Source: Prevotellaceae bacterium UBA1786 (GTDB lineage Bacteria; Bacteroidota; Bacteroidia; Bacteroidales; Bacteroidaceae). Taken from it: a stretch of 7,792 nt of DNA. Positions 2,424 through 6,623 of the stretch are shown here, piece by piece. The position numbers and the translations under genes were made by a program. The notes beneath the pieces were generated by a model. It did no database searches. It was not told where the DNA came from and saw only the letters and a list, made by a program, of their open reading frames with translations. Every line of letters starts with the position of its first letter. Positions within the stretch are counted from its first letter, which is position 1. The stretch is taken from positions 12,048 through 19,839 of the forward strand of contig DCGE01000043.1 in the NCBI GenBank assembly GCA_002314525.1, written 5' to 3'.

Positions 2424-3377
2424 ATGAGACTCATCATACTTGACGGCTTTTCCGTCGTTGCAAAAGACCTCAACTGGAGTTCCATCGTAGGTCCTGACAA
2501 TATCAAGTCTTACGAGACAACATCTCCCGAAGAATTAATAGAGAGATGCAAAGACTATGATATGATACTGACGAACAAGGTCGTTATCAATGCCGAAACG
2601 ATGGATCAGCTTCCTCGGCTCAAATACATTGGAGTACTGGCTACTGGCTACAATGTGGTCGACATAAAGCACGCAAAGGAACGTGGCATCGTTGTCACAA
2701 ACATACCAGCCTATAGCACCGACAGTGTCGCTCAGATGGTCTGGGCACATATCCTGAATATCTTCAACAAGGTTGACTACTATGCTACTCAGAACCGTAA
2801 CGGGCACTGGACTGGCAGGAGCTTCTTCTGCTATTGGGACGCTCCTTTCTATGAGATTGCAGGTAAGACGATCGGCATCGTCGGACTCGGCAACATCGGC
2901 ATGAAAGTAGCACGGATAGCATTGGCATTCGGACTTAAGGTCAAAGCCGTAACATCAAAGCCTCAGGAGCAATTGGAGGACGGAATCGAAAGCGTTGATT
3001 TTGAGACCATGATGAGGGAATCCGACATCATAAGCCTCCATTGCCCTCTGACTGAAAAAAACAAAGGCATGATCAACCATAAGTCCCTGGAATACATAAA
3101 ACAAGGTGCTGTTCTGATAAACACCGGACGGGGAGGACTTGTCGTAGAAGACGACGTAGTCGAAGCACTCAATTCCGGACGTTTAGGAGCTTACGGAGCC
3201 GACGTCTTGAACAGCGAACCTCCAAGTGCCGACAATCCATTGCTGAAAGCAAAGAACTGCTACCTCACACCTCATATTGCATGGGCAACGGTTGAAGCCC
3301 GAAAAAGACTTATCAACATCTGTGCCGAAAACATCAAGGCGTTTCTCGGCGGTTCACCAATCAATCAGGTGAACTGA
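2424..3377 (+). CDS. D-2-hydroxyacid dehydrogenase (glycerate dehydrogenase/hydroxypyruvate reductase-like)
   Basis: This encodes a 317-residue cytoplasmic oxidoreductase of the D-isomer-specific 2-hydroxyacid dehydrogenase family, which interconverts 2-oxoacids and D-2-hydroxyacids with NAD(P)H. The substrate-binding domain spans roughly residues 1-100 and 290-317, and the Rossmann domain about 100-290. The dinucleotide motif GLGNIG is at 154-159. The three catalytic residues are present: Arg236 in NTGRGGLV, Glu265 in NSEPPSADNPL and His284 in TPHIAWAT. After the second Rossmann strand (LKVKAVTSKP, 171-180) the acidic residue that usually selects NAD is not evident, so NADP use is possible. 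The start is ATG 2424 (MRLIILDGF), because the longer reading from 2370 runs through the promoter. Its 3' end overlaps the convergent lytic transglycosylase gene by 17 bp. Glycerate dehydrogenase is the most likely specific role, but this is inferred from overall likeness. Confidence 0.92.
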   Translation: MRLIILDGFSVVAKDLNWSSIVGPDNIKSYETTSPEELIERCKDYDMILTNKVVINAETMDQLPRLKYIGVLATGYNVVDIKHAKERGIVVTNIPAYSTDSVAQMVWAHILNIFNKVDYYATQNRNGHWTGRSFFCYWDAPFYEIAGKTIGIVGLGNIGMKVARIALAFGLKVKAVTSKPQEQLEDGIESVDFETMMRESDIISLHCPLTEKNKGMINHKSLEYIKQGAVLINTGRGGLVVEDDVVEALNSGRLGAYGADVLNSEPPSADNPLLKAKNCYLTPHIAWATVEARKRLINICAENIKAFLGGSPINQVN

Positions 3378-4590
3378 CCCTGATACTCCGATAGTAATCC
3401 CATAGACTGCGGATCGAGCGGACATACTGATATGTTTCCGTACCTCGCATATACCCATACTGAACCACCGGGTCACGATACGAACCTGGATTCATCAACG
3501 AGAGAACCATCTCATCGACATTGCCGTTCCACACATTCGAGTTAAGTCCCTTTTTCCGTGCCAGACGCCGTGCATCGTCAATATGACCCATTCCGCCATT
3601 ATAGGCAGCAAGGACAAAGTTTATCCGTTGGTTCCTATCGCTGATATCAGAATAATGACTGTCAAGATGACGTATTATTGCCACTGCACCCTTTATATTA
3701 ATATTAGGAGTAAATAAGTCTTCCGGATTGATTCCATAACCTCGTGCCGTACTCGGCATAATCTGCATAACACCTCTCGCTCCCGCTCTGGATACTGCCT
3801 GACAGTCAAAACCTGACTCTTGGTAAGCCTGAGCAGCAAGCAGACGCCAATCCCAATTACAGACAACCGAAGAAGACCTGAATTGTGCATCATACGGAGA
3901 TATAATCCCTCGTGATGCATCCAGCACCGTCGTCATTGCATTGATTCGTGGGGTATAATACCTTTCACCGCCATTCCTCACGCGTTTGTCGTCCTTGACC
4001 TGACGGCTTATTTCATAGAACATAGGTTGGTTGTCAGCCAGATAAGCATTGACAGCCTCGGCCAACATCGGAGATTCAGACCTGACTGCCCATGCTGTTG
4101 GTTGTTGGCTGTTGGCTGATGGCTGCTGACTGCTAATCACTGACACTCTGTTCAGACTGTCCACAAAATCTGTTATCTCCTCTTCACCACAATACACCAA
4201 CCTACCCTCCAGACTGTCGGCAATATGGAGGTTATAGGCAATCATGTCACCCTCACCGGAGATAAACTTCTGCACCAGTTCTTTTTCATCATGCATCACC
4301 TCCACACGGATCGTAGTCCCTATCTTTTCTGCAAAATCCTCAGCCAGACGGTATTGATAACCAAAATCCTCACCATGAAAGTCAAAATATGAATTGGCGC
4401 CATAAAGAGTAAGGACTATCAGTTCACCTCCGTTCTGAATATCCTCAAGGTCATACGTATGGCTATCCGTCTCAACCTTATTGAACGGATTGGGATTTGT
4501 CGTATTCAGGCATCCTGACAGGATAAGAACAGAAACCAGCAACAGACTATCAAATAAATATTTACATTGTCTTCTCACTGCAAAAATCAT
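3361..4590 (-). CDS. mltF: MltF-like membrane-bound lytic murein transglycosylase (lipoprotein) with shortened solute-binding domain
   Basis: This encodes a 409-residue lipoprotein. An N-terminal signal peptide ends in the lipobox LSGC, with Cys27 as the lipidated residue. Residues about 55-195 resemble part of a family 3 solute-binding domain (GELIVLTLYGANSYF, GYQYRLAEDFAEKIG, SGEGDMIAYNL). Residues about 240-370 form a GH23 SLT domain with the catalytic Glu258 in AYQESGFD, GVMQIMP at 273-279 and AAYNGG at 328-333. The enzyme cleaves the MurNAc-GlcNAc bond of peptidoglycan to form 1,6-anhydro ends, acting in the periplasm while anchored to a membrane. Relatives have about 90 more residues between the YCGEE..T segment and the WAVR segment. 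Here these are joined by a linker (SSQQPSANSQQPTA) encoded by a 7-bp repeat, so the second lobe seems lost. The catalytic domain looks intact and the frame is open, so I call it a gene and not a pseudogene. Confidence 0.9.
   Translation of the reverse strand: MIFAVRRQCKYLFDSLLLVSVLILSGCLNTTNPNPFNKVETDSHTYDLEDIQNGGELIVLTLYGANSYFDFHGEDFGYQYRLAEDFAEKIGTTIRVEVMHDEKELVQKFISGEGDMIAYNLHIADSLEGRLVYCGEEEITDFVDSLNRVSVISSQQPSANSQQPTAWAVRSESPMLAEAVNAYLADNQPMFYEISRQVKDDKRVRNGGERYYTPRINAMTTVLDASRGIISPYDAQFRSSSVVCNWDWRLLAAQAYQESGFDCQAVSRAGARGVMQIMPSTARGYGINPEDLFTPNINIKGAVAIIRHLDSHYSDISDRNQRINFVLAAYNGGMGHIDDARRLARKKGLNSNVWNGNVDEMVLSLMNPGSYRDPVVQYGYMRGTETYQYVRSIRSLWDYYRSIRVSSPD
4094..4135. repeat. Degenerate 7-bp tandem repeat inside the mltF-like gene
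   Basis: On the plus strand six consecutive heptamers can be read: GCTGTTG, GTTGTTG, GCTGTTG, GCTGATG, GCTGCTG and ACTGCTA. Three repeats make 21 bp or seven codons, so the protein shows a seven-residue period (SQQPSAN, SQQPTAW). The tract lies exactly in the linker where relatives carry the second lobe of the solute-binding domain. The period is seen directly; the mechanism that produced it is not known. Confidence 0.75.
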
Positions 4591-4609
4591 CTCTTTCTAA
4601 AAATCGATG

Positions 4610-4617
4610 CAAAGTTA
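4610..4617 (-). promoter_or_regulatory. Bacteroidetes -7 promoter box for the mltF-like gene
   Basis: The minus strand reads TAACTTTG followed by CA, an exact TAnnTTTG match 19 bp upstream of ATG 4590. No clear -33 TTTG is seen at normal spacing. The box faces away from the strong promoter at 4639-4669, and the two promoters share the AT-rich DNA between them. Confidence 0.65.
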
Positions 4618-4638
4618 GGAAAAATTTTTCTTCTTTGT

Positions 4639-4669
4639 TTTGTCAATATCAAAAAAATAATTAACTTTG
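4639..4669 (+). promoter_or_regulatory. Strong Bacteroidetes promoter for the structured RNA gene
   Basis: TTTG at 4639-4642 and TAACTTTG at 4662-4669 are separated by exactly 19 bp. This matches both halves of the Bacteroidetes primary sigma factor consensus (TTTG, 19-21 bp, TAnnTTTG). Transcription should start near 4675. No convincing protein gene follows before the terminator at 5010-5047, so the promoter appears to serve a non-coding transcript. Confidence 0.75.
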
Positions 4670-4674
4670 CACTC

Positions 4675-5047
4675 GCACATTCACTTAACGCTAACAATAC
4701 TAACCAATAAATGCGTAAGATAGTACATTTGTAATACGAGAGACTGGTTCCAGTCTATATGTGGCAGCAGAGTTTCAGCATTCAGAAATGCTGACATTTC
4801 TCTTGATGACACTCTTTTGTCACACTCGAATTTGTAGAAGCATTTACAAAATGCTGAATTACAATAGAAGAAATTTTCATACTTTCTGTACTGCAGTGCA
4901 TTCTATCTGAATATGTGAATATGAGGGTAGATGTTTTTAAATTGAAGATTAGTATTTGTTGCACTGCAATAAAAGTACAGATTGTCGTGCTTTATTTTGT
5001 GTTTGTGTTGGCTGCCCCTTACGCGAGTAACGGGCGGCCTTTTTTTT
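4675..5047 (+). ncRNA. Candidate structured non-coding RNA of about 370 nt, family not recognised
   Basis: This stretch has its own promoter (4639-4669), its own intrinsic terminator (5010-5047) and no credible coding frame. The 72-codon frame at 4915-5133 runs straight through the terminator and the uxaB promoter. Many inverted repeats are visible. Perfect hairpins lie at 4741-4756 (6-bp stem, GTTC loop), 4775-4794 (8-bp stem, CAGA loop), 4807-4822 (5-bp stem) and 4839-4855 (7-bp stem). TTGTAAT at 4729-4735 can pair with ATTACAA at 4858-4864 and would enclose all four as a multi-branched domain. A second domain is closed by CTGTACTGCAGTGCA at 4886-4900 pairing with 4960-4967 and 4974-4980, with a 6-nt AATAAA bulge. 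I see none of the hallmark sequences of RNase P RNA, tmRNA or SRP RNA. 6S RNA or a long regulatory RNA cannot be excluded. The start is estimated from the promoter. Confidence 0.6.
5010..5047 (+). terminator. Strong intrinsic terminator with GCGA tetraloop
   Basis: The left arm GGCTGCCCCTTAC (5010-5022) and right arm GTAACGGGCGGCC (5027-5039) form a 13-position stem with one G-U wobble and one C-C mismatch. It is capped by the GNRA-type loop GCGA (5023-5026) and followed by eight T (5040-5047). It ends the transcript from the 4639-4669 promoter before the uxaB promoter begins. Confidence 0.9.
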
Positions 5048-5053
5048 CGGCTG

Positions 5054-5072
5054 ATAATACATTTTGTATTAT
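5054..5072. promoter_or_regulatory. Inverted repeat upstream of the uxaB promoter, candidate regulator site
   Basis: ATAATAC (5054-5060) and GTATTAT (5066-5072) are perfect inverted 7-bp arms around the spacer ATTTT. The site lies just after the terminator T-tract and about 14 bp upstream of the uxaB -33 element, a place suited to an activator or upstream operator. AT-rich DNA makes chance palindromes common, so support is modest. Confidence 0.35.
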
Positions 5073-5075
5073 TTT

Positions 5076-5089
5076 CAACATAAATGTTG
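5076..5089. promoter_or_regulatory. Palindrome overlapping the uxaB -33 element, candidate operator
   Basis: CAACAT (5076-5081) and ATGTTG (5084-5089) are perfect 6-bp arms around AA. The right arm contains the TTG that serves as the -33 element of the uxaB promoter, so a bound dimeric repressor would block RNA polymerase. The regulator is not encoded in this window. Confidence 0.45.
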
Positions 5090-5116
5090 GGATTTCAGTT
5101 TTTTTTCGTAATTTTG
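5086..5116 (+). promoter_or_regulatory. Promoter of the uxaB-uxaC operon
   Basis: TAATTTTG at 5109-5116 fits the TAnnTTTG -7 consensus, and GTTG at 5086-5089 lies 19 bp upstream as the -33 element. Transcription would start near 5122, leaving an A-rich leader of about 30 nt before ATG 5154. It lies wholly downstream of the terminator at 5010-5047, so the operon is transcribed separately from the RNA gene. Confidence 0.65.
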
Positions 5117-5153
5117 TGCTCCATATCCGATAAATAAGTAAAACTATCAAAAT

Positions 5154-6623
5154 ATGAAATCGCTAAACAAACGGACTGCACCCAAAAGTTGTGCACCTGA
5201 AAGAATCATCCAGTTCGGAGAAGGCAATTTTCTCCGTTGTTTTGTTGACTGGATCATCTACAAGATGAACCGCAAGACTGACTTCAACTCAAGTGTGGTT
5301 GTCGTTCAGCCTATTGAGAAGGGAATGGTTGACTGGCTGAATGGTCAGGACTGCTTGTATCATGTCAATCTTCAGGGTCGTCTGAACGGAGAGAAAGTCG
5401 ATAAACTGACAAGGATCGACTGCATCAGCCGTGCATTGAACCCATACACTCAGAACCAGGCTTTCATAGCTCTGGCTGAACAACCGGAAATCAGGTTTGT
5501 CATCTCGAACACCACTGAAGCCGGTATCGCCTTCGACCCTTCATGCAGGTTCAGTGATGCTCCTGCGAGCAGCTATCCCGGCAAACTCACACAACTTCTT
5601 TTCCATCGCTACGAGACCTTCAACGGTGCAACGGATAAAGGATTGATCATTATGCCATGCGAACTCATCTTCCTCAACGGTCATCATCTCAAGGAATGCA
5701 TCTTCCAGTACATCGAACTCTGGAAGGAGGATTTCGGTACCAAGTACGAAGGTTTCAAGGACTGGTTCACCAACTATTGCTATGTCTGTGCCACTCTCGT
5801 CGATCGCATCGTACCTGGTTTCCCTCGCAAGGACATCAACCAGATCCAGGAGAGAATATGCTACCGCGACAACATGGTCGTTCAGGGCGAGGCTTTCCAC
5901 CTCTGGGTCATCGAAAAACCTGAAAACATGAGCATCGAGGATCTGAAATCTGAATTCCCAGCCGAAAAGGCAGGACTCAACGTGCTCATAGCAGAATCCG
6001 AGAAACCTTATCACGAACGTAAAGTCACACTGCTCAACGGACCACACACCGTTCTGTCACCAGTTGCATTCCTTTCCGGAATCAACATCGTCAGAGACGC
6101 CTGCAATCATGAAGTCGTCGGTAAATATATCCATAAGGTTCAGTTCGATGAACTCATGCAGACTCTCAATCTGCCTATGGACGAACTTGAGAAATTCGCA
6201 GGCGACGTACTTGAACGCTTCAACAACCCGTATGTCGATCATCAGGTAACGAGCATCATGCTCAACTCATTCCCGAAATACGAGACACGCGACCTTCCGG
6301 GCCTGAAGACATTCCTCGAAAGGAAAGGCTGTCTTCCTGAAGGCCTTGTATTCGGACTTGCTGCCATCATCACCTACTACCGAGGTGGAAAACGTGACGA
6401 CGGCACGGAAATCGTTCCGAATGATGCTCCTGAAATCATGCAGTTTCTCAAGGACCTCTGGGCAACCGGCGACACTCAGAAGGTTGCAGAAGGAGTCCTC
6501 GCTGCCGAATTCATCTGGCATGAGAACCTCAACAGCATCCCTGGTCTTACCCAACTCGTAAAGCAAGACCTCGACCTCATCAGCAATAAGGGCATGCTCG
6601 AAGCCCTCAAGACAATACTATAA
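5154..6623 (+). CDS. uxaB: Tagaturonate reductase (altronate oxidoreductase)
   Basis: This encodes a 489-residue cytoplasmic enzyme of the long-chain mannitol dehydrogenase family that reduces D-tagaturonate to D-altronate with NADH, the second step of galacturonate breakdown. The N-terminal segment RIIQFGEGNFLRCFVDW (17-33) forms the start of the Rossmann fold. ISNTTEAGI (117-125) and LVDRIVPGFPR (215-225) are typical of UxaB. KVTLLNGPH (290-298) carries the Lys290, Asn295 and His298 pattern (K-x4-N-x2-H) that matches the catalytic residues of the family. The length agrees with other UxaB proteins. Many codons end in C (CTC, ATC, TTC), unlike the flippase gene, which suggests good expression. 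Fructuronate reductase (UxuB) is a related alternative, but the motifs and the uxaC neighbour favour UxaB. Confidence 0.92.
   Translation: MKSLNKRTAPKSCAPERIIQFGEGNFLRCFVDWIIYKMNRKTDFNSSVVVVQPIEKGMVDWLNGQDCLYHVNLQGRLNGEKVDKLTRIDCISRALNPYTQNQAFIALAEQPEIRFVISNTTEAGIAFDPSCRFSDAPASSYPGKLTQLLFHRYETFNGATDKGLIIMPCELIFLNGHHLKECIFQYIELWKEDFGTKYEGFKDWFTNYCYVCATLVDRIVPGFPRKDINQIQERICYRDNMVVQGEAFHLWVIEKPENMSIEDLKSEFPAEKAGLNVLIAESEKPYHERKVTLLNGPHTVLSPVAFLSGINIVRDACNHEVVGKYIHKVQFDELMQTLNLPMDELEKFAGDVLERFNNPYVDHQVTSIMLNSFPKYETRDLPGLKTFLERKGCLPEGLVFGLAAIITYYRGGKRDDGTEIVPNDAPEIMQFLKDLWATGDTQKVAEGVLAAEFIWHENLNSIPGLTQLVKQDLDLISNKGMLEALKTIL

Follow-up and report, generated by a model that had tools for sequence, protein, structure and literature searches.

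The window (the whole 7,792-nt stretch of DNA analysed here) contains a candidate RNA gene between mltF and uxaB. This RNA is predicted to be some 373 nt long. Judged from its sequence and predicted fold, its 3′ part (4884–5047, about 164 nt) belongs to an extended Bacteroides-1 family as a divergent member. The window has no galE ORF at the position it takes in a syntenic relative, and alignment to that relative indicates that the galE promoter now precedes an RNA-only unit. Comparison across genomes identifies a conserved, folded RNA with an invariant linker, which several lineages have kept without its mRNA.

A structured RNA unit between mltF and uxaB

Genes in the window are ordered glycosyltransferase, flippase, 2-hydroxyacid dehydrogenase, mltF (minus strand), uxaB and uxaC. 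The intergenic region separating mltF from uxaB (4591–5153, 563 nt) contains a promoter and a predicted RNA running from about 4675 to 5047. In the feature list, L089 denotes the RNA locus of G221, the nearest relative of the window.

3364–4590, minus strand: mltF-like lytic transglycosylase, the divergent neighbour (best NCBIfam match, under that model's cut-off; 79% identity in G221)
4639–4669, plus strand: Bacteroidetes-type promoter TTTG-N19-TAACTTTG (31 bp), the former galE promoter (sole strict match; lies within the L089-like stretch 4608–4718)
4670–4718, plus strand: former galE 5′ leader and first codons (alignment to L089; sequence)
4719–4883, plus strand: 165-nt stretch without known relatives replacing the galE ORF, with hairpins (genome search; fold)
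4884–4981, plus strand: structured domain, counterpart of Rfam Bacteroides-1 (fold, L089 identity, held-out covariance model match, permutation tests)
4885–4892/4974–4981, plus strand: helix P1 of the structured domain
4893–4900/4960–4967, plus strand: helix P1b of the structured domain
4902–4931, plus strand: P2 of the structured domain, with UAUGUGAAUA at 4912–4921
4933–4949, plus strand: P3 of the structured domain
4982–5009, plus strand: 28-nt U/G-rich core, predicted to be single-stranded and nearly invariant across the family
5010–5047, plus strand: intrinsic terminator with GCGA tetraloop and T8 (fold; covariation in relatives)
5154–6623, plus strand: uxaB (tagaturonate reductase), the downstream neighbour (NCBIfam above cut-off; 90% identity in G221)

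A preliminary description, made from the letters of the window, had proposed that a structured RNA gene lies here, bounded by a promoter and a terminator of its own. Our analysis supports this. The two-element, 31-bp promoter with 19-bp spacing is found exactly at 4639–4669. It is the single match to TTTG-N17-21-TANNTTTG, the Bacteroidetes promoter consensus, on both strands of the whole window. By chance, 0.04 matches would be expected on one strand of the 563-nt intergenic region (500 shuffles). A sigma-70 scan returned sites at chance level only. A separate promoter had also been proposed for the next operon. Consistent with that, positions 5072–5118 upstream of uxaB share 81% identity with the corresponding L089 stretch, but the strict two-box pattern has no match there.

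The roughly 370 nt following the promoter had been described as lacking a credible protein gene, and this holds. Just two ORFs of at least 60 aa overlap 4674–5047: a 60-aa minus-strand frame (4782–4964) and a 72-aa GTG frame (4915–5133) that reads through the terminator. Among the 93 core loci described below, the 72-aa frame matched L089 alone (E 6e-8, within the DNA-conserved part) and the 60-aa frame had no outside match better than E 0.03. Both short frames are unconserved; hence, we rejected a small ORF as an explanation for 4674–5047.

The RNA is predicted to be highly structured. Positions 4674–5047 have a minimum free energy of -114.2 (z -5.63), matched by none of 100 dinucleotide shuffles. 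Separately, the 5′ extension (4674–4883) gives z -3.07 (1/200 shuffles as good) and the domain at 4884–4981 gives z -4.50 (0/200). Both halves fold better than shuffles, so the earlier account of hairpins and two multi-helix domains is a fair description. The computed fold also contains the strong intrinsic terminator expected from that account, as a stem (5010–5039) followed by 8 T. A simple terminator scan did not list 5010–5047, we think because of a 1x1 internal loop. Within the 165-nt insert there are two similar hairpins (GCATTCAGAAATGC and GCATTTACAAAATGC).

Searches with Rfam gave no match at E ≤ 1 in the RNA region of the window, and a search of the region alone returned sub-threshold matches only. 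The one match at E ≤ 1, U6atac at 5375–5498 (17.1 bits, cut-off 33), lies inside uxaB and was taken as chance. The searches do not support tmRNA, tRNA or other Rfam families. FopS was not among the Rfam matches on the window, a negative that counts only if the release includes a FopS model.

A near-invariant core marks an RNA family in Bacteroidaceae

Relatives were sought by two routes. Among the best 80 of 462 uxaB loci, none has mltF upstream of uxaB, and nhmmer with the region gave nothing significant (one match at E 0.13). A DNA search found matches in 220 of 399 family genomes (E ≤ 0.01, two candidates scored per genome). Nearly all matches listed from that search are one stretch directly before the terminator. 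This 28-nt core was present at 99 loci; after dropping 6 duplicates, 93 distinct loci remained, including the window. Positions 1, 2 and 9 vary, in 3, 1 and 2 loci respectively, and the other 25 of 28 are invariant in all 93, a count biased upward because loci were picked by similarity with at most 5 mismatches allowed. The window has C at position 9, as does one other locus, and otherwise carries the common core. With at most 3 mismatches, the core occurs in 4 of 344 genomes sampled evenly from the order, all four of which are also in the family sample. A reversed-core control found none in the same 344 genomes.

At E ≤ 1e-5, 215 of the 399 family genomes gave a match to a covariance model of the RNA; we draw nothing from its absence in the others, many of which we take to be drafts, the filters also being strict. 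Most genomes carry one copy and the maximum is four. Three or four copies occur in some genomes (G386:C29:32637-33040, G262:C1:5015912-5016316, G354), and G386 and G262 each have two copies in tandem, about 70 nt apart. A 35.6-kb IMG/VR contig has a copy (L261:3564-3670, 80.9 bits) near an S24-type repressor gene, which could be either prophage-borne or host flank at a provirus edge. In four genomes (L110, L117, L119, L120) a free-standing RNA with its own strict promoter match lies downstream of a shared gene, which we take by eye to be Maf-like.

Covariation supports the predicted structure

Of the 93 loci, 44 have UAUGNGAAUA no more than 220 nt ahead of the core, where shuffling predicts 0.3. 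Hence, the motif is not universal in the family. It can be read as a UAU/AUA stem capped by a GNGA tetraloop, a putative UAU-GNGA-AUA hairpin. In the window, the hairpin is present with its covarying flanks at -11.3 kcal/mol. Mean pairing energy of the flanks (P2) was -9.79, compared with -4.72 ± 0.47 when flanks were exchanged between loci (0/300 permutations as good; 38 motif loci among 82 non-redundant). Likewise, the 16 nt before the core (P1) pair upstream at -9.60, against -8.23 ± 0.20 after exchange (0/300; 82 loci). Since these permutations, and the shuffles below, ignore relatedness, their certainty is overstated.

RNAalifold applied to a MAFFT alignment recovered the terminator alone, with covariation. 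The 5′ domain was therefore tested by permutation and with a named structure. Counting and modelling drew on 33 of 42 loci that bear the hairpin, the window not being counted among them. Briefly, 38 remained after removing redundancy, L089 was held out, and L090, L093, L097 and L164 were omitted as long. Fifteen of 20 pairs changed on both sides (1/500 shuffles as high), and the three UAU/AUA pairs are uninformative because they never vary. The covariation score was 0.467 against 0.233 ± 0.014 for shuffles (0/500 as high) and dropped to 0.10–0.17 once the structure was shifted by 1 to 3 columns. P1 forms in 78.5% of cells. In these relatives, therefore, the stems covary and, as noted above, no reading frame is conserved, so the preliminary description withstands its own test on related intergenic regions.

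A covariance model built without the window or L089 found the window at 4876–5038 (75.8 bits, E 6e-15 over 493 kb). It also found all 13 other held-out core loci (63.6–103.1 bits). On 50 of the 80 uxaB loci, which served as controls, it made one match (22.9 bits, E 0.009), the place of which was taken as chance. The core is included in the model. Hence, this result tests the whole unit and not the 5′ domain alone.

Relationship to Bacteroides-1 and other described RNAs

Rfam family RF01694, Bacteroides-1 (Weinberg 2010), has the same UAUGUGAAUA hairpin in the same place. Matches to RF01694 were obtained in 10 of 30 RNA-carrying genomes at E ≤ 0.01, four of them above the cut-off. All 10 lie directly upstream of the core, which argues that Bacteroides-1 is the 5′ domain of this RNA. 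The 82-nt model ends before the core and terminator. The window itself gives no match at E ≤ 1, or at E ≤ 10 for 4640–5070, and falls outside the gathering score of 43. The suggestion that the RNA is undescribed thus stands in part: the family of its 3′ portion has a 5′ domain already in Rfam, and the core and terminator are outside the model.

The table in Weinberg 2010 (PMC2864571) marks the Bacteroides-1 motif 'y' for RNA, '?' for cis-regulation and 'n' for switch. In the literature searched, that paper alone gives the accession RF01694. Elsewhere the string 'Bacteroides-1' belongs to microbiome studies, judged by title, and the phrases 'Bacteroides-1 RNA' and 'Bacteroides-1 motif' are absent. 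No paper in the same literature joins Bacteroides, galE, UTR-derived and small RNA. The main text of PMC8040213, on candidate structured RNAs of human microbiomes, does not contain galE, epimerase or Bacteroides-1; a supplementary candidate may match.

Several other small RNAs (sRNAs) of Bacteroides bear comparison. MasB (BTnc201, RF04177) of B. thetaiotaomicron likewise has a U/G-rich linker before its terminator; its model scores 20.4 bits on the window against a cut-off of 105. MasB is roughly 100 nt long and its conservation is called narrow by its authors. According to the part of PMC10994844 consulted, mutations were used to probe pairing sites at nt 41–50 and 69–74, and a compensatory mutant gave partial restoration. 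Counted along the RF04177 consensus, nt 41–50 fall in the U/G-rich linker. BTnc049 (RF04179) has a weak likeness across core and terminator (20.6 bits for the window and no more than 35.4 for the relatives scanned; cut-off 81.9). FopS and GibS, both bound by RbpB, are also Bacteroides sRNAs, and the sections of PMC11697453 consulted describe FopS-14 as 3′ UTR-derived. By the same account FopS has 14 paralogues in B. thetaiotaomicron and a 5′ seed, whereas the family described here is mostly single copy with a 3′ core. More generally, an sRNA derived from an mRNA 3′ UTR shares the terminator of the coding gene. Here, in contrast, several lineages keep the RNA but lack the coding gene. PMC7366714 names a validated UTR-derived sRNA, BTnc028, which might correspond to this RNA.

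Probable loss of galE beside a retained RNA

At 70 of the 93 loci, the core lies at most 500 nt past the end of a galE of one type, and the RNA is the 3′ UTR of that gene. The other 23 loci, the window among them, have no galE directly upstream. We treat galE linkage as typical of the family, not as defining it. Two of the 70 linked proteins were checked, and both are GalE by TIGR01179, above cut-off. In one genome with two galE copies, a core follows each (L200 and L201, G004).

G221 is colinear with the whole window (glycosyltransferase 74% identity, flippase 83%, dehydrogenase 76%, mltF 79%, uxaB 90%, uxaC 89%). It has galE between mltF and uxaB; the window does not. Positions 4608–4718 align at 82% identity with the promoter, leader and first codons of galE in L089. 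An ATG at 4711 reads MRK and its frame stops at 4732–4734. Positions 4884–5045 are 76% identical to the galE 3′ UTR, core and terminator of L089, beginning 9 nt past the stop codon, and some helix differences are compensatory by eye. Where G221 has a 1.04-kb galE ORF, the window has 165 unrelated nucleotides. The simplest reading of this alignment is that galE was lost from the window locus rather than never there. The absence applies to the mltF–uxaB locus, and a copy elsewhere in the genome is possible. The predicted unit here holds RNA alone; in G221 the corresponding promoter and 5′ end belong to galE.

A search of 399 family genomes with the 165-nt insert (4719–4883), in which two candidates per genome were scored, produced matches in 14, all short and at chance level; the ten listed with their loci span 22–32 bases. 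Neither the remaining window nor the 12-kb region around the G221 locus gave a good match (best E 0.14). Comparison with galE revealed no clear remnant (Smith-Waterman 23 against 19.1 ± 2.3; 21 of 300 shuffles as high). Hence, an origin as galE remnant, duplication or mobile repeat is unsupported.

The same galE type is missing from 20 of the 22 other searched genomes with unlinked RNA, although draft incompleteness could fake a few of these absences. An alternative GalE of about 50% identity is present in 17 of the 20 (one partial), and three have no match at the thresholds used. The two that keep this galE have it on another contig (G054) or about 2.5 kb upstream (G093). All 11 galE-linked genomes checked contain it. 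From genome to genome, one GalE type seems to stand in for the other (about 50% identity); both are present in G144.

Some galE-less loci share neighbours with galE-linked relatives. The gene directly downstream in G076 is common to galE-linked G055 and G166, and in G125 it sits 4.5 kb downstream, past another ORF. G094 has a downstream gene in common with galE-linked G003. G123 retains divergent mltF upstream and is missing galE. Upstream sequences of galE-less L220, L221 and L224 align with the pre-galE regions of relatives (42–73 nt, 68–79%, E 7e-5 to 0.002), a weaker case than that of the window since promoters share consensus letters. For L192 (G123), matches to pre-galE regions were short and unconvincing. 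A strict promoter match lies at most 420 nt upstream in 9 of the 22 other unlinked loci and is lacking in 13.

An aspS tree was built of 29 genomes, of which 13 lack this galE; it requires five changes of galE state, at least four of them forced by well-supported branches. The window was not included, and G258, the thirtieth genome, was dropped as it had no match over the aspS cut-off. All 29 genomes have the RNA. The tree counts changes and not their direction; given the wide linkage to galE, losses are the simpler reading. Retention of the RNA in several lineages without galE suggests that it has a job of its own.

Proposed function and alternative explanations

By analogy with described sRNAs, we propose that the window encodes a free-standing sRNA of about 370 nt, the 3′ part of which belongs to a family found mostly as galE 3′ UTRs, and that it acts in trans by core pairing. 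We put the probability of this reading at roughly 60%. The structured domain and terminator would flank and protect the single-stranded core. The core would base-pair, in a MasB-like manner, with A/C-rich stretches of target mRNAs. An RRM-type RNA-binding protein would probably assist, and RbpB and its sRNAs make such a partner plausible. In galE-linked species, the same RNA would be made by mRNA processing or from an internal promoter. Across 67 galE leaders, the core paired with the start region little better than shuffles did (mean z -0.60; z below -2 in 13%). Hence, galE autoregulation by core–leader pairing has no support.

Against a pairing sRNA, the invariant stretch of 25 nt is longer than most known seeds, and 13 of the 22 other unlinked loci are without a strict promoter match. 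The long core, together with the lack of target pairing at galE, would fit an RNA that is mainly a protein ligand or sponge, in which a conserved RNA-binding protein would bind the core and the folded domain would serve only to stabilise it. The parts of PMC11697453 that we draw on report that RbpB favours single-stranded regions of its RNA ligands and that a 41-nt motif is enriched in its peaks. However, they also describe RbpB-bound GibS and FopS as acting via mRNA pairing, and we hold the protein-ligand role to be possible but a good deal less probable than trans pairing. The promoter count would also fit an RNA that is merely a stability or termination element of the galE 3′ UTR, with the window copy a decaying, functionless leftover; 70 of 93 loci are such 3′ UTRs, and the 165-nt insert is unconserved. 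Yet the core is retained in the 20 of 22 unlinked-RNA genomes without this galE, and 9 of 22 unlinked loci do have a strict promoter match. Core, helices and terminator are also intact in the window, with some changes from L089 that look compensatory. A leftover is thus unlikely.

An assembly or binning artefact, in which the real genome has galE and the contig is collapsed, is more doubtful still. The 165-nt stretch is not well matched anywhere else in the window or in the G221 neighbourhood, and galE-less RNA loci share genes with galE-linked relatives in G125, G076, G094 and G123. The length and structure of the RNA had earlier suggested a divergent 6S RNA. Neither 6S-flavo nor Bacteroidales-1 gives an Rfam match at E ≤ 1 on the window, and most family members examined are mRNA tails. 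We consider 6S RNA, or any other Rfam housekeeping RNA, barely credible.

Significance

On a wider interpretation, the conserved gene of this locus in the Bacteroidaceae may be the RNA and not the enzyme. The RNA would have been freed several times from the galE 3′ UTR by in-place loss of the ORF, the mRNA promoter being kept, in a conversion of mRNA to sRNA. The core would then be an unrecognised, family-wide regulatory sequence with a very broad or essential target. We rate the chances of this wider interpretation at about even. What is new here is the invariant core, the terminator, the wide range of the family and the persistence of the RNA in genomes without galE. Because galE is repeatedly absent while the RNA is kept, such genomes are natural knock-outs of the coding part, implying that RNA function is separable from mRNA function. 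The RNA-binding proteins of such bacteria are only now being worked out. An RNA stretch invariant at 25 of 28 positions in a dominant gut bacterial family, and outside the Rfam model, is a strong candidate for a post-transcriptional regulator.
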